Positions 4,384 to 19,618 of a DNA stretch of 20,043 bases are shown piece after piece. The notes below the pieces were generated by a model. It saw nothing but the letters and a program-made list of their open reading frames with translations, was not told the DNA's origin and ran no database searches. This stretch comes from a virus. The stretch lies in the IMG/VR virus record IMGVR_UViG_3300012920_007653, positions 1 through 20,043 of that record. One strand, written 5' to 3'. A program made the translations under genes and the position numbers. Within the stretch, counting starts at the first letter, position 1. The number at the start of each line of letters is the position of its first letter.

Positions 4384-4490
4384 TGAAGTTCACATATAGG
4401 AATAAAAATCGCAATCTAGTTCTTAAGAAACGTCTTAGGAACTATTTTGTGTTTCTCGTTATTGGTATTTTGATAGGAGTTACAATATGA
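4383..4490 (+). CDS. Small single-pass membrane protein, 35 residues
   Basis: The ATG at 4383 overlaps the preceding stop (TAATG) and the TGA at 4488-4490 overlaps the next start (ATGA), so it is coupled on both sides, which is strong evidence for a real gene despite its size. The first 20 residues carry a high positive charge (Lys/Arg-rich, RNKNR and KKRLR), followed by a hydrophobic run from about residue 21 to the end (YFVFLVIGILIGVTI). By the positive-inside rule the N-terminus should be cytoplasmic. Function unknown; a host-membrane effector or a membrane anchor for the neighbouring proteins is possible. Confidence 0.6.
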   Translation: MKFTYRNKNRNLVLKKRLRNYFVFLVIGILIGVTI

Positions 4491-5608
4491 ACAATCTTGT
4501 CCTTCAAAAACTTTTGCATGGCTATCAATTAATTACACCGAATGAAGCAAATTTTGGTGAAACAGAAACTAAGAAGGTTGATAGTTTTGAATATACTGCC
4601 TTGAAAGAACAGAATAAATTAATTAGTTCTTTTGACAGAAAATGGGTGAGTGGTTTTCACTTTGCAAGACACATCAATGATGGTACGAAACTTAATCCAA
4701 GAGGTGATCATTGGCTTAGAAATGATTTTACTGATGAAAATGGTATTGCCAAAGAGAGGGTTAGTATTTGTCCAAAGATGTTGCATGACGTGATGAAAAT
4801 GTATTCAAGAACTGTAACTCAAGCAGGCAAGTTTTACATTAATGAACAAGCCAATAACTGTGTAACAGCAGAAGAGACTAAAGCTCTTGTGAATGAAATA
4901 AAGTTTTTTGCACCATATCAAAACACCTTTCTGCAAGTGGAAGATGAACATATGATTGGAAATATTCTTGTTACTGATGGAATTGAAAGCAGTGGTGTCG
5001 TAAAAGAAGATAAAAAATCAAATGGTGATTTCAAAGATGTTGATGCTACCACTCTGCATATGACCATGAATATTTATTTTAAAGGAGAAAATAAAGTAAT
5101 TTTAGACCCCAACATCTATGAGGTTGCATTTTCAGATGGTAGTTATGGTTTCAAAGTAATCAATTCAAAATTCAGAAGTATGACTGACGTCAGAATGACT
5201 GATGATGGAAACTTTGAAAACGAAGATTTGAATGAATGGGTTTATAAAATGGTGAACTACTATTTTAAATTTATGGTTTATTTACAGTTTCCACAGATTT
5301 GTGATGTACAAAAAAGGCAAGGTCGTAGTAATGATAACTGGTATGACATACCCACTAAATATTCTACAAGCCACCTGAGAAAAAAACCTAAGTTTGAGCA
5401 TAAAGAACTTGTTATCAATATGTTTGGAGATTCTAGTTCTAGCAATGTTAATCCTCTTGCGAATGGTAATACAGGGGGAACAGCATTCCATAGTGTTAGA
5501 AAGCATTTAAGACGTTTGCCTAATGGAAAAATGACTTGGGTAAAAGCACACTTTAGAGGTTCTAAAAGTGCAGGTATAATAACCAAAGATTATAGGATAG
5601 AAGAATGA
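4487..5608 (+). CDS. Unknown 373-residue protein with basic C-terminal motif
   Basis: The largest gene of this operon, starting at an ATG eight bases after AGGAG and overlapping its neighbours at both ends (ATGA junctions). I do not recognise the bulk of it. It has no membrane segment and no obvious nucleotide-binding loop. The last 40 residues are strikingly basic: HSVRKHLRRL, a GKMTWVK segment and HFRGSK, followed by an acidic tip. Similar H-x-V-R-x-H-x-R ... G-K-x-x-W-V endings occur in unassigned phage and plasmid proteins, from memory. A nucleic-acid-binding role is plausible but unproven. Confidence 0.72.
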   Translation: MNNLVLQKLLHGYQLITPNEANFGETETKKVDSFEYTALKEQNKLISSFDRKWVSGFHFARHINDGTKLNPRGDHWLRNDFTDENGIAKERVSICPKMLHDVMKMYSRTVTQAGKFYINEQANNCVTAEETKALVNEIKFFAPYQNTFLQVEDEHMIGNILVTDGIESSGVVKEDKKSNGDFKDVDATTLHMTMNIYFKGENKVILDPNIYEVAFSDGSYGFKVINSKFRSMTDVRMTDDGNFENEDLNEWVYKMVNYYFKFMVYLQFPQICDVQKRQGRSNDNWYDIPTKYSTSHLRKKPKFEHKELVINMFGDSSSSNVNPLANGNTGGTAFHSVRKHLRRLPNGKMTWVKAHFRGSKSAGIITKDYRIEE

Positions 5609-5799
5609 CTTTGAAAGAATATATACAAGATATTTTAGAAGCAGTAGACGAGCAAGAGGTTGATCAATGGCTCTCAGACTTACGTCAAGTAGCTGAGAAA
5701 CATAATCTTTCTCCATTTCAAGTAATGATTGATCTCTTGCAATTTAAACAAAGAGAAGAACGTGATGCTTATTACCAAGATAAGCACAACATTCACTAA
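5605..5799 (+). CDS. Unknown 64-residue helical protein
   Basis: Last gene of the operon, beginning inside the stop of the previous one (ATGA). It is short, highly charged and likely all-helical (LKEYIQDILEAVDEQEVDQWL). No family recognised. Its stop (5797-5799) interlocks with the stop of the opposing gene at 5796-5798, with no terminator between the two convergent operons. Confidence 0.6.
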   Translation: MTLKEYIQDILEAVDEQEVDQWLSDLRQVAEKHNLSPFQVMIDLLQFKQREERDAYYQDKHNIH

Positions 5800-6332
5800 T
5801 CAAAACTTCTCTTGCCATCATCAGGCACCCAACCTTGACTGAATTCGGAATCACTTCCCTTTTCAGTCATAGGTCGGTAATCATATAGACGATCAATTTC
5901 TTCTTGTTCCATTCCTAAGAATTCTTTTATTTGATCATCAGACCATTCGTGTTTTTCTTTAAGGTCTCTAACAATGTCAGTCATTGGTAAAATTAAATGA
6001 TTACCTCTAGCCCTATTATGTACAATTGTTGCGGCTTTCTGTTCTGCTAAATCTATTTCATCAGATAGAAATACAACTGGAACCATGCCATCTGTAAGTT
6101 CAAATATTTCATCGTCCCCTGAGACTGTCCATCTATGAAAACCATCAACTATTTCTTTGTTAGACCTAGCAACTATAGGTTGTGTCCAACCACAAAGTTT
6201 GATTGATGTCTTAAGCAGATCAAGTTCTATCGGTGAAACCTTATTGGGGTTATAGTCATTTGCTTTCAATTCAGTTCGGTTGACCCATTGAAATGTATTT
6301 ATCGGTTGTTTTTCTTTGCCTTTATTTGCCAT
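5796..6332 (-). CDS. ParB/Srx-like protein, IbrB-like partner of the PP-loop gene
   Basis: 178 residues from the ATG at 6330-6332. An ATG 18 bases upstream is in frame, but AGGAGA sits between the two, so the downstream codon is preferred. Residues about 12-110 carry the ParB N-terminal-type fold: NPNKV (28-32), the GFHRW phosphate-binding motif (64-68) and NRARG (106-110). The C-terminal third is charged (WSDDQIKEFLG, EEIDRLY). It overlaps the preceding PP-loop gene by 11 bases. An IbrA-family PP-loop protein immediately followed by a ParB-like IbrB is a known pair; IbrA/IbrB of Escherichia coli raise expression of immunoglobulin-binding genes, and the biochemistry is not settled as far as I know. 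Some ParB-fold proteins bind or hydrolyse nucleotides; activity here is unknown. Confidence 0.82.
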   Translation of the reverse strand: MANKGKEKQPINTFQWVNRTELKANDYNPNKVSPIELDLLKTSIKLCGWTQPIVARSNKEIVDGFHRWTVSGDDEIFELTDGMVPVVFLSDEIDLAEQKAATIVHNRARGNHLILPMTDIVRDLKEKHEWSDDQIKEFLGMEQEEIDRLYDYRPMTEKGSDSEFSQGWVPDDGKRSFD

Positions 6333-7536
6333 TAAATCTCTCCTTATCATAAAGTCTTTTCATGTTTTTTATAGTTTGTGGATCAGTTGAAAAACTTGGT
6401 GACTTTCTGTCTTTGAAATCACCGCGCATTGCTATTCTTAAAAGGAACTGCCAACTCATGCCTGTGTGATAATGTGGGTTTTCTAATATAGGGTCAGATG
6501 TTTTACTCTTATGCCATTTTATCCAATGCTGTATCTTTTCAGCAATGAGTGACCTATATGGGTTTGGGTGTTTCATAACGTAATATTTTATGTAGTCTAG
6601 CCACTCAATATCATCAGGTTTTTTTGGCACACCATTAAATGCATAAAGTTCTGTGTTGGCATATCTTGCAGCAGTTGCAGAACCTTCAACTCTGCTTTGC
6701 ATCTTATCCCAAATATCAGGGAAAGCAATTGAATACTGCCACAAGCCCCTCATTGGTTCTTCTCCATATGGTGGAGCACACCTTTGTTGCAAATGAGTAA
6801 GACCAAGTTTTTCTAAGATGTCATATGTTGTGTTGTAATCCCAATTGTAAAGATGAGGTGCAGTCCATACATCAACTGTTTTCATATCATATATTGGACA
6901 TACTTTCCAAACATTAGCTAAAGCTGTTTTGCTTTTCAAAGGTATCATGTATGGTTCATATCTTTTGCCATGCCCTGTTTGCAGAATTGTTCGGTATCTC
7001 GTTAATGATTCTTCTGATCTTATGCCCATAATGACACCAACTTCTCCAACTTTTTCAGGTGGAAATAAAAGTCCGTTACATTCTGGAACAGCTGGTCTTT
7101 TATCAATATCTATTGGGAACATGTCAATATCTTCCCATGTAATTACTGATTCATGCTTAGGCATGGGCCTTACCCATTTATCTATATCTTCTGGTGCCCA
7201 AGGAAACCAATAAGGTTGCTTTCTACTACAACCATTCCTATGTTTTATTGGAACGCACAACCAATGCATATTGACTTCAGGCAAGTTGGCTACCCTTTCT
7301 ACATAATCAATAGTTTCATATGGAATTGCTTCTTCATCAAAAAAGTAAACATCTAATGGTAATTTATTTCTTTCTTTGGCAACCTGTAAAGTAAGGTTCA
7401 GACAGACAGTTGAGTCCTTGCCACCTGAAAACATAACAACAACAGAATCAAATATGTCATAAGTTCTGTTAATTCTTTCAAGCGCTAAATCATAGACGTT
7501 TTGATCAATTGTTCTTTTTTTATGTACTTTGCTCAT
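6322..7536 (-). CDS. PP-loop / PAPS-reductase-family protein, IbrA-like
   Basis: 404 residues. The ATP-pyrophosphatase loop SGGKDS is at 37-42 after a hydrophobic strand, and the family arginine motif GIRSEES...R at 171-180; a PIYDMKTVDVW segment follows at about 214-224. The C-terminal part (RCAPPYGEEP near 252, RVEGSATAARY near 282-292) matches the IbrA/DUF3440-type extension rather than a plain assimilatory reductase. The ECGxH-type C-terminal catalytic cysteine of true PAPS reductases is absent, so sulfate reduction is unlikely; adenylation-type chemistry, as in DndC and tRNA thiolases, fits the motif better. AGAGGA precedes the ATG at 7534-7536. It sits between the cupin and the ParB gene it overlaps. 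Confidence 0.88.
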   Translation of the reverse strand: MSKVHKKRTIDQNVYDLALERINRTYDIFDSVVVMFSGGKDSTVCLNLTLQVAKERNKLPLDVYFFDEEAIPYETIDYVERVANLPEVNMHWLCVPIKHRNGCSRKQPYWFPWAPEDIDKWVRPMPKHESVITWEDIDMFPIDIDKRPAVPECNGLLFPPEKVGEVGVIMGIRSEESLTRYRTILQTGHGKRYEPYMIPLKSKTALANVWKVCPIYDMKTVDVWTAPHLYNWDYNTTYDILEKLGLTHLQQRCAPPYGEEPMRGLWQYSIAFPDIWDKMQSRVEGSATAARYANTELYAFNGVPKKPDDIEWLDYIKYYVMKHPNPYRSLIAEKIQHWIKWHKSKTSDPILENPHYHTGMSWQFLLRIAMRGDFKDRKSPSFSTDPQTIKNMKRLYDKERFNGK

Positions 7537-7603
7537 TTTTTTGTCCTCTGACTTGCCCTCTAAGAGCTTTTTTGTGTGCTAGGAATACCCTAACACCCCC
7601 CAT
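7520..7603 (-). CDS. Possible 27-residue ORF bridging cupin and PP-loop genes
   Basis: The ATG at 7601-7603 begins two bases after the cupin stop, preceded by AAAAGG at a suitable distance, and the ORF ends inside the first codons of the PP-loop gene (17-base overlap). The peptide is basic (FLAHKKALRGQVRGQKNEQ). It closes the only real gap in the cassette. It may be a genuine small protein or just a coupling leader; size alone cannot decide. Confidence 0.4.
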   Translation of the reverse strand: MGGVRVFLAHKKALRGQVRGQKNEQST

Positions 7604-7605
7604 AT

Positions 7606-8292
7606 TTAGCCTTTTCCATGATCAATGTAAGTTCTATTGAGCATTGGGTGATTAGTGTCTGTAGGCCCAAAATCACTATCAGGGTGATATGCAATTATAT
7701 CCATAAAGTTTTCAGATGTTCTAAAGCTATGAACTTCTCCTTCCTCTAAACAAAACATTCTGCCCTTCACTAAATCTTTTTCCCAACCCTCTCTTTTACC
7801 ATCAGGTTTTTGAAATGCTTCACCTTTTCCGTCAATAACAATGCCCATTCTTATGCTTGGGTGTAAATGTTGTGTTTGATCTATGCCCATTGGAAAGTGC
7901 AGATAGTTTAGACAAGGGTCGCCTAATCTTGGTGGCATAATTAAAAGTGAATCTGTACAACCGTCAATATAGGAAAGCCTACCTCTTTTTTCTGATTTAC
8001 CAACTAGATCAATTCCTTGAAAACCATATCTTTTTATTAAAAACATTTTTGAATCCAAAGAATTTGACCAGATTGTAAAAGGTGTTTTCAGACTAAAGAA
8101 ACTACCTTCTGTAATGATGTAAGTGTCTTTACCTTTTTCTATTGTAAAAACACCGTCAGTTACAAAACCATAAGCATTGTTTGCTGTGTCAGAAACAGTA
8201 AAGTCACCCTCAATACAAGTCATATCTGTAGGGTACATAGTTTCAGTTTGATCTATTTTGTCTCCGTGTTTAGGGTTATCAATCAGAATCAA
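7606..8292 (-). CDS. Bicupin-like protein in the ParB/PP-loop cassette
   Basis: 228 residues with two cupin-like halves. The N-terminal half (about 40-75) has the strand pattern of a cupin barrel (GFVTDGVFTIEKG, then EGSFFSLKTPF) but no metal ligands. The C-terminal half has the metal-site pattern: H142-x-H144 in QHLHPS, GIVIDGKGEA, then LEEGEVHSF with H188 in the motif 2 position. The usual motif 1 glutamate is not present (Arg/Met there), so the site is a three-histidine type or divergent. Cupins include dioxygenases, isomerases and small-molecule sensors; the substrate cannot be read from sequence. Its start overlaps the stop of the preceding ParB gene by 14 bases, tying it to the cassette. 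Confidence 0.72.
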   Translation of the reverse strand: MILIDNPKHGDKIDQTETMYPTDMTCIEGDFTVSDTANNAYGFVTDGVFTIEKGKDTYIITEGSFFSLKTPFTIWSNSLDSKMFLIKRYGFQGIDLVGKSEKRGRLSYIDGCTDSLLIMPPRLGDPCLNYLHFPMGIDQTQHLHPSIRMGIVIDGKGEAFQKPDGKREGWEKDLVKGRMFCLEEGEVHSFRTSENFMDIIAYHPDSDFGPTDTNHPMLNRTYIDHGKG

Positions 8293-8878
8293 TTTTATAT
8301 CTCCTTACAAGCTCCATCAGAGCCTGTGTTTTAGTATCTAAGTGTAAATCTCTACGAATGATTTCTATGCAGTCCATAACTGCTTTTCTTTCTTCTTCTT
8401 CCATGTAAAAAATTAATGGCACTTGGTTTGTCAGTTCTTTTGCAGAATAACCAGCTTCGTCTAGTTTTATATCTTTATCTATTAAATCATCAAACGAATC
8501 AAAGGCATCATCATCTTGAAAATTAAAACCAGCGACTTCTATTTCCAAATCTTCTAGTTTTTTTAATTCTTGTTTTAGAAAATTATCTTCCCATTGTGTA
8601 AGTTCACCAACCTTATTGTCTGCTAATCTGTATGCATCAATTTTTTCTTGTGTATCGTCATAGACAAGACAAGGAACTTCTTTCATGCCTAGTGATTTAC
8701 AAGCCAGTAATCTTGTGTGACCAGCAATAATAATATTATTTTTATCAATAGAAATAACTTGTCTCATGCCATGATTCTTTATTGATTTGGCACATTCTTC
8801 TATAGCTTTATCAGATATAATTCTTGGGTTCTGATAATAGGGAATAAGGTCATCTACATTTTTGCTAACTACTTCCAT
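8279..8878 (-). CDS. ParB-like protein, first gene of the cassette
   Basis: 199 residues. The N-terminal ParB/Srx domain shows YQNPR (15-19), SIKNHGMRQVI (32-42) and the GHTRLLAC motif (53-60), followed by YRLADNKVGELTQWE (83-97). The last segment is typical of ParB domains found fused to or beside phage DNA methyltransferases; no methyltransferase is present here. The C-terminal region is acidic then helical (MDCIEIIRRDLHLDT). It is distinct from the second ParB protein at 5796-6332. The ATG (8876-8878) has no Shine-Dalgarno sequence but lies eight bases after a -10-like box and overlaps operator copy 2. Confidence 0.86.
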   Translation of the reverse strand: MEVVSKNVDDLIPYYQNPRIISDKAIEECAKSIKNHGMRQVISIDKNNIIIAGHTRLLACKSLGMKEVPCLVYDDTQEKIDAYRLADNKVGELTQWEDNFLKQELKKLEDLEIEVAGFNFQDDDAFDSFDDLIDKDIKLDEAGYSAKELTNQVPLIFYMEEEERKAVMDCIEIIRRDLHLDTKTQALMELVRRYKIDSD

Positions 8879-13373: not shown

Positions 13374-13719
13374 AAAAAGATTTGAGGACAAAAACCATTT
13401 AGAAATGGTCGCTAATATGCAATGTATGATGCGAACCTTTGGAGCTTCCAAAAGTGAGATAGGTGGTTGCAGTGGACCAACACAAGCACACCATCTATTA
13501 CGTCCTTATGATGGTATAAGAGGTATGGGCATGAGGAGTAATGATAAAAATGTTATTCCTTTATGCCAAAACCACCATACCTTATTACATACTAAATACG
13601 GAAGTGAAAAGGCTTTTTTTACAGCTTATGGAATGCCTGAAGATATGGGAAAGAAAATTGCTGAATCCCTTTATATAACCAACTCTCCAATGAAAACTAC
13701 AGACGATTCTCCTTTTTAG
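13351..13719 (+). CDS. HNH nuclease-like protein, Ref/DUF968-like
   Basis: 122 residues. The HNH/zinc core reads QAHHLL (H47, H48), a central GMGMRSNDKNVIPLC with C72, and NHHTLLH (H75, H76, H80), with upstream cysteines C25 and C40 as possible further ligands. This arrangement resembles the RecA-dependent nuclease Ref and DUF968 proteins of phage recombination modules. The C-terminus is TTDDSPF, close to the DDIPF tip of bacterial SSB. The start at 13351 lies inside the previous gene and lacks a clear Shine-Dalgarno sequence, so translation probably relies on coupling; Met18 or Met22 are alternatives. The stop codon lies in the stem of the operon's terminator. Confidence 0.8.
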   Translation: MKKKRNSKKRFEDKNHLEMVANMQCMMRTFGASKSEIGGCSGPTQAHHLLRPYDGIRGMGMRSNDKNVIPLCQNHHTLLHTKYGSEKAFFTAYGMPEDMGKKIAESLYITNSPMKTTDDSPF

Positions 13720-13742
13720 CCCAAAAAGGGCTACTTTTTTTT
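13717..13742 (+). terminator. Intrinsic terminator of the recombination operon
   Basis: A perfect 6-bp stem (TAGCCC / GGGCTA) with an AAAAA loop is followed after one base by eight T residues (13735-13742). The HNH stop codon TAG is the first triplet of the stem. A textbook rho-independent terminator. Confidence 0.9.
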
Positions 13743-13767: not shown

Positions 13768-13814
13768 TACATGGTCTAATAACTATGTTGTTAAGAAAAA
13801 AGGAGATTTGAAAA

Positions 13815-14654
13815 ATGACATTTGATACCAAAAGAAAGTTCGGAGTAGAAGTAGAGTTCTTATCTGAATATCAAAGCCAAAGACAAGTAGTTAATTTGGT
13901 AAATTCGTATTTAACTAATCATGATGCTGATTTCAGAATGGAATATGCATATTATAGTGACACATCTAATGCTTGGAGAATCAAGTCTGATTCAAGTGTG
14001 TCAGGCAATTATTCTCATGGTTTAGAATTGGTCACACCTGTTCTACATGGAACAAGAGATTATGAAAGATTAATGCTTGTGCTTGATGCTATCAACAACA
14101 TTGATGGAATTACTGTAAACAGAACTTGTGGTTTACACGTTCATGTTGGTGTAGAAAATTGGGAAGTGAGCAACTTCAAAAATCTTGTTAAAAGATATGC
14201 TAAGTTTGAAAAGGCTTTAGATTCAGTTATGCCAAATTCAAGAAGAAGAAGCAATGGTTCTTATTGTGAATCAAACTTTTCTCATTCTTATACTTTGAAA
14301 AACATCTACAAAGAAATTGACAAACAAAAAACAATAAGACAATTGACTGATGAATGTGCTCATTCAAGATACACAAAACTTAATTTACAAAGTTTTTGGA
14401 AACACGGAACAGTTGAATTCAGACATCACAGTGGTACAACCAATCCTGATAAAATTAGTAATTGGTTAAAAGTTTGTTTAGCAATGTGTGAAGCTGGTGA
14501 CACAAAAAGAATTGTCAAGGTTGATCAAGACTCTAACCTTCAAGTAAACAACTACACATTACAAGTTTTCTTTAACGGACTTGCTAAAGCTAGTGATCTT
14601 ATTACTACCGATTTAAGACTTTTCTATAACAGAAGAGCGAGGAGTGTTGCATGA
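13815..14654 (+). CDS. Amidoligase-family enzyme (COOH-NH2 ligase)
   Basis: 279 residues with the Amidoligase_2-type, glutamine-synthetase-like core: FGVEVEF (9-15, E12 and E14 as metal ligands), W-R-I-K-S-DSSV (54-62), GLELVTP (69-75), TCGLHVHV (104-111) and RYTKLNLQSFWKHGTVEFRH (185-204, written in parts: R185, N190, E201, R203). The family joins a carboxylate to an amine using ATP, in peptide tagging or small-metabolite synthesis. AGGAG lies eight bases before the ATG. The stop overlaps the following 82-residue gene (ATGA), and a gamma-glutamylcyclotransferase-like gene follows, a combination described for phage amidoligase operons. The natural substrate is unknown. Confidence 0.86.
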   Translation: MTFDTKRKFGVEVEFLSEYQSQRQVVNLVNSYLTNHDADFRMEYAYYSDTSNAWRIKSDSSVSGNYSHGLELVTPVLHGTRDYERLMLVLDAINNIDGITVNRTCGLHVHVGVENWEVSNFKNLVKRYAKFEKALDSVMPNSRRRSNGSYCESNFSHSYTLKNIYKEIDKQKTIRQLTDECAHSRYTKLNLQSFWKHGTVEFRHHSGTTNPDKISNWLKVCLAMCEAGDTKRIVKVDQDSNLQVNNYTLQVFFNGLAKASDLITTDLRLFYNRRARSVA

Positions 14655-14899
14655 AGCAACTAAGGTATCAAATGGTGGGGGATTCGTCCCCCCTCCTCGG
14701 TCTCACTAAAGATGATATTGCTAGAGAGATTTATGATCGTTCATTCATTTATGCTTTCACACATCAATCATTTGACGAGTGGATGTCATCAACTAAAAGA
14801 AGAATCAATATTCAATTTGGTATTGAAATGATTTACGAGGATTCAGACCAGTTCGTAGATCAATTAGAAAAACATGGTCTAATTAGGAGATATGAGTAA
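14651..14899 (+). CDS. Unknown 82-residue protein between amidoligase and cyclotransferase
   Basis: Coupled to both neighbours (ATGA at its start, TAATG at its end), with AGGAG eight bases upstream. After a distinct N-terminal segment there is a helical body (KDDIAREIYDRSFIYAFTHQSF, in two helices) with aromatic residues, ending HGLIRRYE. Codons 9-14 are encoded by a GC-rich hairpin, the strongest structure in this AT-rich region. No family recognised. It could be a substrate or adaptor of the amidoligase (speculation). Confidence 0.62.
   Translation: MKQLRYQMVGDSSPLLGLTKDDIAREIYDRSFIYAFTHQSFDEWMSSTKRRINIQFGIEMIYEDSDQFVDQLEKHGLIRRYE
14677..14692 (+). promoter_or_regulatory. GC-rich hairpin early in the 82-residue gene
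   Basis: GGGGGA, TTCG, TCCCCC forms a perfect 6-bp stem with a four-base loop, about 26 bases after the start codon and inside the coding frame. No T-tract follows, so it is not a terminator. A structure here could slow ribosomes or stabilise the message; the role is inferred. Confidence 0.5.
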
Positions 14900-15348
14900 T
14901 GTTGTATTTTGCTTATGGTGCTAACTTGAACAAAGAAGGTATGGAAAGAAGATGTCCAAATGCTGTTCCAGTTGGCAAGTTTATTATGCCTAATCACCAG
15001 TTGGTGTTTAAGGGAGTTGCCGATATTGAAGAACAAGATGGTTCTTTTGTAGAGGGTGTGTTATGGGATATTACCGATGAGTGTGAAAAAGCTCTTGATC
15101 GCTTTGAAGGTTATCCATATTTGTATATTAAAAAATTACATTGGAAAGAATGTAATGGATATGCTGAACCAGTCATGTTTTACGTAATGAGAAAGAGTGA
15201 GTTGAGTTCACCAAGTCAAGGTTATGTTGACTGCATTAGACAAGGTTACAAAGACTTTGACCTTGATGAAAGATGTCTTGATTATGCTCTCAAGCATACA
15301 GAAAAGAATGATAGCGGTGTAAAGCACTATTCAGTTCAATGGGGTTGA
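14899..15348 (+). CDS. Gamma-glutamylcyclotransferase-like (GGCT/AIG2 fold) protein
   Basis: 149 residues. It begins with the family phosphate-loop signature FAYGANL (4-10); the catalytic acid/base is E70 in the LDRFEGYP motif, followed by the usual Y-x-x-K segment and a later GYVDCIRQGY helix. GGCT enzymes release 5-oxoproline from gamma-glutamyl amides, so beside an amidoligase it may reverse, proofread or complete gamma-glutamyl-type linkages. This pairing has been noted in amidoligase operons of phages and bacteria. All key residues are present. The start overlaps the preceding stop (TAATG). Confidence 0.84.
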   Translation: MLYFAYGANLNKEGMERRCPNAVPVGKFIMPNHQLVFKGVADIEEQDGSFVEGVLWDITDECEKALDRFEGYPYLYIKKLHWKECNGYAEPVMFYVMRKSELSSPSQGYVDCIRQGYKDFDLDERCLDYALKHTEKNDSGVKHYSVQWG

Positions 15349-15350
15349 TT

Positions 15351-15545
15351 ATGAATGGTGATGAATTAAAAGTTCTGAGAACGAAAGCAGGTCTTTCACA
15401 ATCTCAATTAGCAGAAAAACTTGGTTACTTTTCTAAGGGCAAACCAAACAGAAGCATGATCGCTAGATTTGAAAACGGTCATGCCTCTATAAATTTTAGA
15501 ATTGGCATTCTTATAAAAAATATACTTGGAGATATGAATGAATAA
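15351..15545 (+). CDS. XRE-family helix-turn-helix regulator
   Basis: 64 residues from the ATG at 15351; another in-frame ATG at 15339 lies inside the previous gene, but a GGGG stretch eight bases before the later codon favours 15351. The domain is a standard XRE fold: LKVLRTKAGLSQSQLAEKLG, then RSMIARFENGHASINF. It is distinct from the regulator at 11223-11429. As part of the amidoligase operon it could bind the inverted repeats at 13746-13767 and control its own transcript, which is inference. It overlaps the next gene by eight bases. Confidence 0.82.
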   Translation: MNGDELKVLRTKAGLSQSQLAEKLGYFSKGKPNRSMIARFENGHASINFRIGILIKNILGDMNE

Positions 15546-17881: not shown

Positions 17882-19618
17882 TCAATTGAATGTATAAATA
17901 TTTACAGGTTTGCTTTTTCCTTTGACCATAATAGCATCTAATTTCAGCAATTCAAAAGAGCAATTCTTTTTGGTTTCCTCTCCTATCAAAACATCAACCA
18001 TTTTTTCTTTCGTATTAGATTCAAGCCTTGCACATAAATTTACGGAATCACCTAAACTTGTAAATTCAAATCTGTCATCTGACCCCATGTTTCCGACTGT
18101 TGCATATCCAGTATTAATACCAATACCGATTTTTATTGCAGGTAATTTTTCTTTTATTAACTCTTTATTCAAAGTTTCCATATTAATAATAATTTCTTTT
18201 GCAGTTTTGAGAGCTAAGTCCTGATGTTTTTCTACATCTAATGGAGCATTCCAACAAGCCATCATTGCATCACCTATATACTTATCAACCATACCTTCAT
18301 TAGACTTAACTGCATTAGCTTGTACTGTAAGAGCTTTGTTCATTAGGTACGTTACTTTTTCAGGTTCTAACTGTTCAGACATGCTGGTAAAACCTCTGAC
18401 ATCTGTAAACATATGGGGGCAGTAGCTTTTTTCTCCACCTAGCTTTAGTAACTGTGGATTGTCTTGTAGTCTTTTAACTTGTCTTGGATCAAGATAATGC
18501 TCAAACTGTTTCTTGATTTGTTGTCTTAGTTTGTATTGTTGCCTGAATCGTAAATAAAAACTTGTACTTGCAATTATAAATTGTCCAATAAGAGACCATG
18601 TTACATCTATTAATATTCCTTGTTTTATTGTCCAATAGCCATAAAGACCTGTAGAAAACATAACAAATCCACCCATAGTAAGACTAAGGGTAAGCCCAAA
18701 AGATTGTGTTAGAAGCCAAATAAGAAGCCCTGATAATATAAAAATTAGCAATTCTAGCGATAAATACCAATTTGGTATGTATGGACTGTTTTCAATTAAA
18801 ATACTTTCAGCTAAAGCAGTTTGAATTTTATGAGGCTCCAAAAGACCGACAGGTGTAGAAATCGTGGGCATTATTCCTGAAGCTGTAAAACCTACAAAGA
18901 CAAACTTATCTTTGACATCTAATTCTTTTAAATTTGTTTCAGATGTTTCTACCCAACTCACCCACTTTCGTCCTAAACTGTCCACCCTTGTTTGTGGTAA
19001 ACCTTGTACTTTTATCTCTTCAATACCTAGTTCATTTGTTTTTATGATATAAGTATCAGCACCAACTAATACTTTCAATACTTCTACAGCATATGACGAA
19101 ACCCAACCATTAGGAGTTTGATATAACAGAGGTATTTGTCTAACAAGATTATCTACGTCTACAGGTGAAGAAGCTAAACCTTCATTTGTACTTGATCTTA
19201 ATGGTTCAACATTATTTATTGTGCCTTTAATAAAATTGGTTTTTACATCTTCACCCAATATTACTGTTCCGACTGTCTGTGGATAAATGCCATTCTCATA
19301 TTCAAAGATAGATAAAACAGAATTAGTTTGACCAAGCACTTCTGCAAAAATATCATCACCACCTAATCTATCTTTGTGTGGCATAGCTAAAACCCAACCA
19401 ACACCCAAAGCACCTGCATTGATGATTTCTGCATGAATTTTAGCTAGTTCTAATCTTGGTATTGGATAACCCCCTTGATCATCAACAAACTTTTCATCAA
19501 GATTTATGACAGTAAAATATCCTGATTCTTGATACTCAGGCACAAAATAATCAAAGGTTCTTAACTTGATAAGCTGTTGATAACTATGTTGGAAAAGTAG
19601 AGGTATAGCTAAAACCAA
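17882..19618 (-). CDS. CHASE2-domain class III adenylate cyclase
   Basis: 578 residues: an extracytoplasmic CHASE2 sensor (about 15-275, with VFVGFTASGI at 240-249 and TPVGLLEPHKIQ at 255-266), three membrane spans (about 286-303, 309-328, 337-356), a short coiled linker and a cyclase domain from about 400. The catalytic set is complete: metal Asp406 in FTDVRGF and Asp450 in KYIGDAM, adenine-selecting Lys446 and Thr520, transition-state Asn527 and Arg531. It should therefore make cAMP from ATP. The start is a TTG at 19616-19618; the frame stays open upstream and would extend the N-terminal span (LFPYILVLVL), so the true start may be a non-standard codon nearby. It sits directly before the holin. 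Confidence 0.92.
   Translation of the reverse strand: MVLAIPLLFQHSYQQLIKLRTFDYFVPEYQESGYFTVINLDEKFVDDQGGYPIPRLELAKIHAEIINAGALGVGWVLAMPHKDRLGGDDIFAEVLGQTNSVLSIFEYENGIYPQTVGTVILGEDVKTNFIKGTINNVEPLRSSTNEGLASSPVDVDNLVRQIPLLYQTPNGWVSSYAVEVLKVLVGADTYIIKTNELGIEEIKVQGLPQTRVDSLGRKWVSWVETSETNLKELDVKDKFVFVGFTASGIMPTISTPVGLLEPHKIQTALAESILIENSPYIPNWYLSLELLIFILSGLLIWLLTQSFGLTLSLTMGGFVMFSTGLYGYWTIKQGILIDVTWSLIGQFIIASTSFYLRFRQQYKLRQQIKKQFEHYLDPRQVKRLQDNPQLLKLGGEKSYCPHMFTDVRGFTSMSEQLEPEKVTYLMNKALTVQANAVKSNEGMVDKYIGDAMMACWNAPLDVEKHQDLALKTAKEIIINMETLNKELIKEKLPAIKIGIGINTGYATVGNMGSDDRFEFTSLGDSVNLCARLESNTKEKMVDVLIGEETKKNCSFELLKLDAIMVKGKSKPVNIYTFN

Follow-up and report, generated by a model that had tools for sequence, protein, structure and literature searches.

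A mobile phage cassette of amidoligase and GGCT-family genes carries a small-protein family tied to the amidoligase

A putative peptidoglycan-modification cassette of the LUZ24, phiEco32 and RIO-1 phages was reportedly proposed by Iyer et al. in 2009. In the passages of the later literature considered here, pairs of an amidoligase and a GGCT-family enzyme are already known from phages, and have been annotated for more than ten years with a guessed role and no substrate named. A seven-gene cassette for peptidoglycan modification has been proposed for RIO-1-, LUZ24- and phiEco32-like phages (PMC5498523, PMC3890496, PMC11945000), amidoligase-GGCT pairs are reported from prophages (PMC11318856, PMC11253131), and OM43 phages carry an amidoligase together with a glutamine amidotransferase (PMC10580990). 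A phage with genes for an amidoligase, a GGCT and a glutathione synthase is reported to promote the growth of its host on ammonium or nitrate, and a role in nitrogen metabolism was proposed for it (PMC10945688). Within these passages on phage amidoligase-GGCT sets, a scope outside which Iyer et al. (2009) lies, the small protein that we call Mid is nowhere described.

The window analysed here is the whole of a 20,043-base virus contig, from a marine phage, in which three genes on the plus strand span positions 13815 to 15348: one for a 279-residue protein of the Amidoligase_2 family (13815..14654; PF12224, phrog_2443), one for the 82-residue Mid, a member of an undescribed family with relatives beside amidoligases (14651..14899), and one for a 149-residue enzyme of the GGCT/GGACT family (14899..15348; PF06094, phrog_2520). 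The coordinates, strand and lengths assigned to these genes in the initial annotation were exact on recheck. The amidoligase and Mid genes overlap by 4 nt (ATGA, 14651-14654) and the Mid and GGCT genes by 1 nt (TAATG, 14897-14901), and an AGGAG is found 6-9 nt upstream of each of the three (13801-13805, 14640-14644 and 14885-14889, in gene order). Since every gene has an AGGAG of its own, translational coupling is possible but not required. Upstream of the cassette, a terminator-like stem with a T tract (13717..13733, plus strand) closes the preceding ERF-HNH gene group; its stem is 6 bp long, and as the region holds two such sites against a mean of 1.1 in shuffled sequences, it lends weak support to the start of a unit. 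Downstream, the gene for a small HTH protein (15339..15545, plus strand) is co-directional and overlaps the end of the GGCT gene, and the overlaps go on, with ORFs at 15339 (HTH), 15538 and 15785 overlapping by 10, 8 and 8 nt in a stretch that runs to 15970. Tight packing alone therefore does not delimit a three-gene unit; the comparison with relatives does. A search against a defence-system library gave no match. At 17882-19618, on the minus strand, the window also encodes a protein with CHASE2 and adenylate/guanylate cyclase domains, a complete sensory cyclase on a phage contig, for which sequence identity is 31% with a protein from Pelagibacter phage HTVC008M and 29% with that of the OM43 (Methylophilales) phages Melnitz.

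The order amidoligase-Mid-GGCT is kept at 13 of 13 loci in close relatives. There the cassette is placed between the small terminase gene (TerS) and a convergent block of ParB and PAPS-reductase genes; in the window it sits between an HNH gene and the HTH gene, at a distance of about 8 kb along the conserved backbone that the phages share. In the relative G003 (locus L202), the HNH-HTH slot is filled by a gene for a 373-residue protein (17957-19042), and the 31% identical homologue of this protein in the window (373 residues, 4487..5608, plus strand) occupies the TerS-ParB slot, where the relatives have the cassette; the cassette and the 373-residue protein gene have swapped slots between the window and L202. 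A 63% identical homologue of the window's HTH protein comes after the 373-residue protein gene in G003 instead, and the HTH gene belongs to the insertion slot rather than to the cassette. In five other relatives (L011, L041, L045, L064, L068), the 373-residue protein, which has no PHROG match, is encoded immediately before the cassette. Residence in different slots of otherwise syntenic phages indicates that the three genes move as one cassette, and the relocation of exactly these three together argues for a joint function. Both the existence of the cassette and its relocation in one piece are shown, and the view of the initial annotation that the genes form one coupled unit is borne out by the fixed order in the relatives and by the joint relocation. 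The idea that the close relatives share only the three cassette genes nearby was refuted: terminase, ParB, PAPS-reductase, cupin, primase and other genes are shared with the window. The window's own ParB - PAPS reductase/DUF3440 - cupin-like - ParB block (5796-8878, minus strand) is 51-78% identical and syntenic in the relatives.

The folds and the catalytic-type residues are preserved in both enzymes. The amidoligase matches phrog_2443 with an E-value of 1e-43 and PF12224 with 1e-39 (137 bits against a curated cutoff of 22, profile positions 2-244 of 245, thus the full domain). Its AF2 model (pLDDT 90) finds YbdK as its best solved neighbours (Z 13.6-13.7 over 232-233 residues, rmsd 4.0-4.3), with glutamine synthetases, a plant glutamate-cysteine ligase (Z 12.3), Dop (Z 11.9) and PafA as further ones; the fold is common to the model and to YbdK-type ligases, glutamine synthetase and glutamate-cysteine ligase, at only 10-16% identity, and the NCBIfam YbdK model scores far under its cutoff. 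D59, E71, H108, H110, R143, E201 and R203 are invariant in 39 amidoligase sequences, and E12 and E14 are conserved in at least 90%; these polar residues have presumed catalytic roles. The predicted structure points to a glutamine-synthetase/YbdK fold with catalytic-type residues intact, and, to judge by its family, the protein would form amide bonds in an ATP-dependent manner. The proposal that a C-terminal extension of some amidoligases is a fused Mid was not supported, as the extended ligases have a separate Mid too. The GGCT-family enzyme matches PF06094 with an E-value of 4e-10 (40.8 bits against a cutoff of 22.8) and phrog_2520 with 4e-27. Its catalytic-type Glu70 is invariant in 13 sequences and aligns with the glutamate of human GGCT that is Gln in entry 3cry, which we take to be E98. 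With the human type the enzyme has in common the profile (the phage family profile matches human GGCT with an E-value of 2e-13), the N-terminal YG-N motif and this glutamate, and it differs in forming a phage subfamily. The catalytic glutamate is thus kept, and by analogy with the family the enzyme would release 5-oxoproline.

Mid itself has no significant match in Pfam, PHROG, NCBIfam or the PDB sequences, and 30 members of its family scanned against PHROG and Pfam gave isolated weak matches only. That it could be an orphan or spurious ORF is ruled out by relatives at the same position between both enzymes, which show the 82-residue ORF to be a real gene. In a near-identical contig it is 100% conserved (0 of 82 codons changed), with the amidoligase and GGCT 97% identical, and at amidoligase identities of about 42-53% every aligned relative keeps a Mid, 32-45% identical, between both enzymes. 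An iterated profile search of 132 loci yielded 94 Mid frames (44 distinct), without exception on the strand that encodes the amidoligase. By these comparisons, Mid appears to be an undescribed small-protein family, new here, that marks a minimal amidoligase-Mid-GGCT cassette. The predicted model (pLDDT 93) is compact, with a beta-beta-alpha(x4)-beta arrangement of strands (4-8, 14-17, 78-80) and helices (20-30, 33-36, 41-56, 65-74). Its comparison with solved structures gave nothing significant (best Foldseek E-value 2.1, best VIA Z 3.9), and it matches two BFVD models of unnamed viral proteins with TM 0.84-0.85. A sub-threshold MarR match (14 residues, E 0.09) and a weak structural match to DNA-bound AcrIIA15 (Z 3.9, 62 residues, rmsd 3.4) could suggest a small DNA-binding regulator of the unit; however, neither match reaches significance, the net charge in the family is on the acidic side (n=55, median -2, at most +2), and a separate HTH gene, whose product has a net charge of +4, stands next door, which leaves such a role very improbable in our estimation.

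How closely Mid follows the amidoligase was assessed in 59 phage clusters and 39 clusters from cellular contigs (85% identity), drawn from 177 amidoligase frames. These frames were obtained mainly with amidoligase queries, also with Mid or GGCT queries, and from 11 phage records (10 hand-picked from tblastn lists and one, L186, found via a Mid query); they are a non-random sample, since the scans relied on patterns and one amidoligase query set was limited to the best 80 of 151. Among the phage clusters, Mid is found downstream in 36 of 59, GGCT within 3 kb downstream in 43 of 59, and both in 32; for the cellular contigs the figures are 0/39 for Mid and 2/39 for GGCT. One locus (L087) was grouped into another cluster, and L110 stops at its contig end. 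Mid begins at most 160 nt from the ligase stop in 35 of the 36 Mid-bearing phage clusters, and in L113 it is found 1.1 kb downstream, past the GGCT gene. Searches from the side of Mid gave the same picture: all 24 viral loci reached with the Mid profile have an amidoligase directly upstream, as have 10/10 phage records reached with the Mid of a Porphyromonas phage as the sole query. The homologues beside amidoligases that had been suggested as a check are therefore present (36/59 phage clusters, 24/24 viral loci). That Mid recurs next to this type of ligase in numerous phages unrelated to one another probably marks it as a working partner, not a chance neighbour.

The association with GGCT is looser. 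In four of the 36 clusters with a Mid (L099, L134, L138, L186), the 3 kb downstream hold no GGCT gene, Mid persists beside the amidoligase in a whole 49.6-kb Porphyromonas phage record without a GGACT match, and it is likewise retained at loci whose GGCT belongs to another subfamily (L083, L105, L107, L117, L118). Conversely, the profile detects no Mid in 11 of the 43 phage clusters linked to GGCT, although one of them, in Geobacillus phage GR1, has a remote one, so that the enzyme pair can work without Mid. Operons with an amidoligase but without a homologue of the 82-residue protein, which the initial annotation had named as counting against its proposal, do occur to this extent, and also in the LUZ24, phiEco32 and Terrisporobacter cassettes. 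In a mirror-tree test on pairwise distances from the 29 loci with a close Mid and GGCT, Mid correlates with the amidoligase at r 0.89 (partial 0.82) and with GGCT at 0.73 (partial 0.49); restricted to the 16 distant loci, the partial correlations become 0.70 and 0.44, respectively. Such a correlation between gene trees would arise in any cassette whose genes are inherited together, a point against reading a partnership into it. Mid tracks the amidoligase more than GGCT, and the family is tied to the amidoligase. The suggested coupling of the small protein to both neighbours is thus true in the window, but the wider data bind it to the amidoligase more than to GGCT.

These data also bear on whether the three could be separate auxiliary metabolic genes, serving nitrogen, glutathione or amino-acid turnover and merely adjacent, with Mid an accessory devoid of joint function. 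The growth-promoting phage with its glutathione synthase (PMC10945688) would fit, as would the occurrence of the amidoligase, Mid and GGCT each without one or both of the others, but the invariant order in close relatives, the joint relocation, the co-divergence of the genes and the lack of a metabolic-enzyme match for Mid make this reading rather improbable.

Beyond the reach of the profile search, profile-profile comparison supports six remote Mids (L119, L120, L131, L132 and phages GR1 and Ottawa; probability 39-90%), with a separate profile comparison giving 87% for the aligned L119/L120/L131/L132, 79% for GR1 and 55% for Ottawa. The ORFs tested numbered 135 on the plus strand and 167 on the minus strand, and all six hits share the strand of the amidoligase; in five of the clusters concerned no GGCT was found nearby, in the sixth (GR1) there is one, and the count of 36/59 leaves the six out. 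Other candidates were rejected: gp41 of Bacillus phage 055SW001 is alike by eye and reaches 0.5% in the profile comparison, the small protein after GGCT in Heliusvirales is not a Mid, and of 12 LUZ24, phiEco32 and Terrisporobacter phage TPDSL_ph1 proteins put to the test the best reaches 2.4%. The Arthrobacter phages Salgado and Ottawa (L133 3198-3650; L136 3207-3674) have a GGCT-like protein (YG[ST]LR by eye) before the amidoligase and a glutamine amidotransferase after it.

A search of 1,191 bacterial genomes from three phyla recovered 8 Mid genes in 6 genomes. Six of these stand directly behind an amidoligase and account for all six PF12224 places in the four genomes concerned, one of the paired amidoligases being a 125-residue remnant. 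The other two stand alone on Bacteroidota chromosomes without any PF12224 (L195 6851-7075, L196 ~7473-7748) and are possible host members of the family. No Mid was found in 398 genomes of the phylum of a gammaproteobacterial MAG, which has no known positive, so that this result shows little, nor in five further genomes searched. In G1108, of a Bacillota-type phylum, an intact Mid behind the 125-residue amidoligase frame (L197 4043-4743) is accompanied by a full amidoligase-Mid-GGCT set 44 kb away.

We suggest that this transferable phage cassette would make and unmake an amide bond, most likely a gamma-glutamyl one. The amidoligase would spend ATP to join a carboxylate, probably that of glutamate, to an amine; GGCT would release gamma-glutamyl groups in the form of 5-oxoproline, so as to undo the modification or to dispose of by-products; and Mid would be a dedicated folded partner of the amidoligase, in the role of an adaptor, specificity subunit or regulatory subunit, and not its substrate. 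We infer the gamma-glutamyl chemistry, the physical contact between Mid and the ligase, and the direction of catalysis, and consider the model as a whole about evenly balanced between right and wrong.

The role of an obvious candidate substrate, which the initial annotation had given to the small protein, is weakened by the conservation pattern of the family. Only M45, R51 and F68 are near-invariant (26/27) among 27 non-redundant members, which have no conserved Lys or Cys and no invariant Asp or Glu, and whose C-termini vary in sequence and length. A Pup-like modifier has a conserved C-terminal Glu/Gln and is disordered, and a LysW-type amino-group carrier has a conserved acidic C-terminus and zinc-binding Cys. 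Like Pup with PafA/Dop, Mid is a small protein with a glutamine-synthetase-fold ligase, but unlike Pup it is predicted to be folded (pLDDT 93) and has no conserved C-terminal Glu/Gln in the 27 members; unlike a LysW-type carrier, its family is without conserved Cys or acidic C-terminus. Mid could still be a covalent substrate or carrier that the amidoligase loads and from which GGCT releases the group, in the manner of Pup, LysW or a carrier protein, given its tight linkage to the ligase, the presence of Dop and the Pup ligase PafA among the fold neighbours of the latter, and the Glu with which the Mid of the window ends. Yet the lack of an invariant acceptor side chain, the differing C-termini, the compact prediction and the persistence of Mid without any GGCT speak against it, and we consider it unlikely. 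A partner or adaptor is favoured over a Pup-like substrate because Mid is compact and has no conserved acceptor residue or C-terminus; of the carrier or adaptor envisaged earlier, it is the adaptor that fits better, the features of a LysW-type carrier being absent.

A related question is the target. The cassette could be a minimal peptidoglycan-modifying one, like those of LUZ24 and phiEco32, acting against superinfection with Mid as an adaptor for host-wall precursors, a reading that overlaps with the partner model and that we regard as a minority possibility. The same enzyme families are involved, and the proposal is a published one (PMC5498523, PMC11945000, PMC11318856), but the passages considered on a cell-wall role hold no wall experiment, the LUZ24 and phiEco32 cassettes are without Mid, and a Pfam scan of 20 proteins from the window, whose contig may be a fragment, showed no ATP-grasp, PF14395 ligase or glutamine amidotransferase. 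Extending the partner model, Mid might found a new family of ligase partners, in which the adaptor steers the ligase to a host protein or cell-wall precursor, GGCT is the eraser, and the chromosomal Mids are host proteins sharing the fold, either as its source or as what is mimicked; we offer this as a long shot. A conserved partner absent from the searched family libraries provides a concrete handle, as a Mid pull-down may reveal the target, and a protein that keeps being annotated as “hypothetical” across phages of several bacterial phyla can now be given a name.

The comparison with the described systems places the cassette of the window among, but apart from, the known amidoligase-GGCT sets. 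In gut Heliusvirales and in Terrisporobacter/Clostridium prophages, the amidoligase adjoins GGCT as it does in the window; in contrast to the window, no Mid was found in the phages examined, two of the Heliusvirales and one of Terrisporobacter, and a zinc-ribbon-like small protein (Cys pattern by eye) follows GGCT. No relative of Mid is present among the eight small or unassigned proteins tested from LUZ24 and phiEco32, whereas the window has one. The LUZ24/phiEco32/RIO-1 cassette differs further in comprising 5-7 genes, with an ATP-grasp ligase, a COOH-NH2 ligase and a glutamine amidotransferase, compared to which the three-gene minimal cassette would be simpler to reconstitute; what it has in common with the window is an amidoligase and a GGCT-like enzyme in one cluster.
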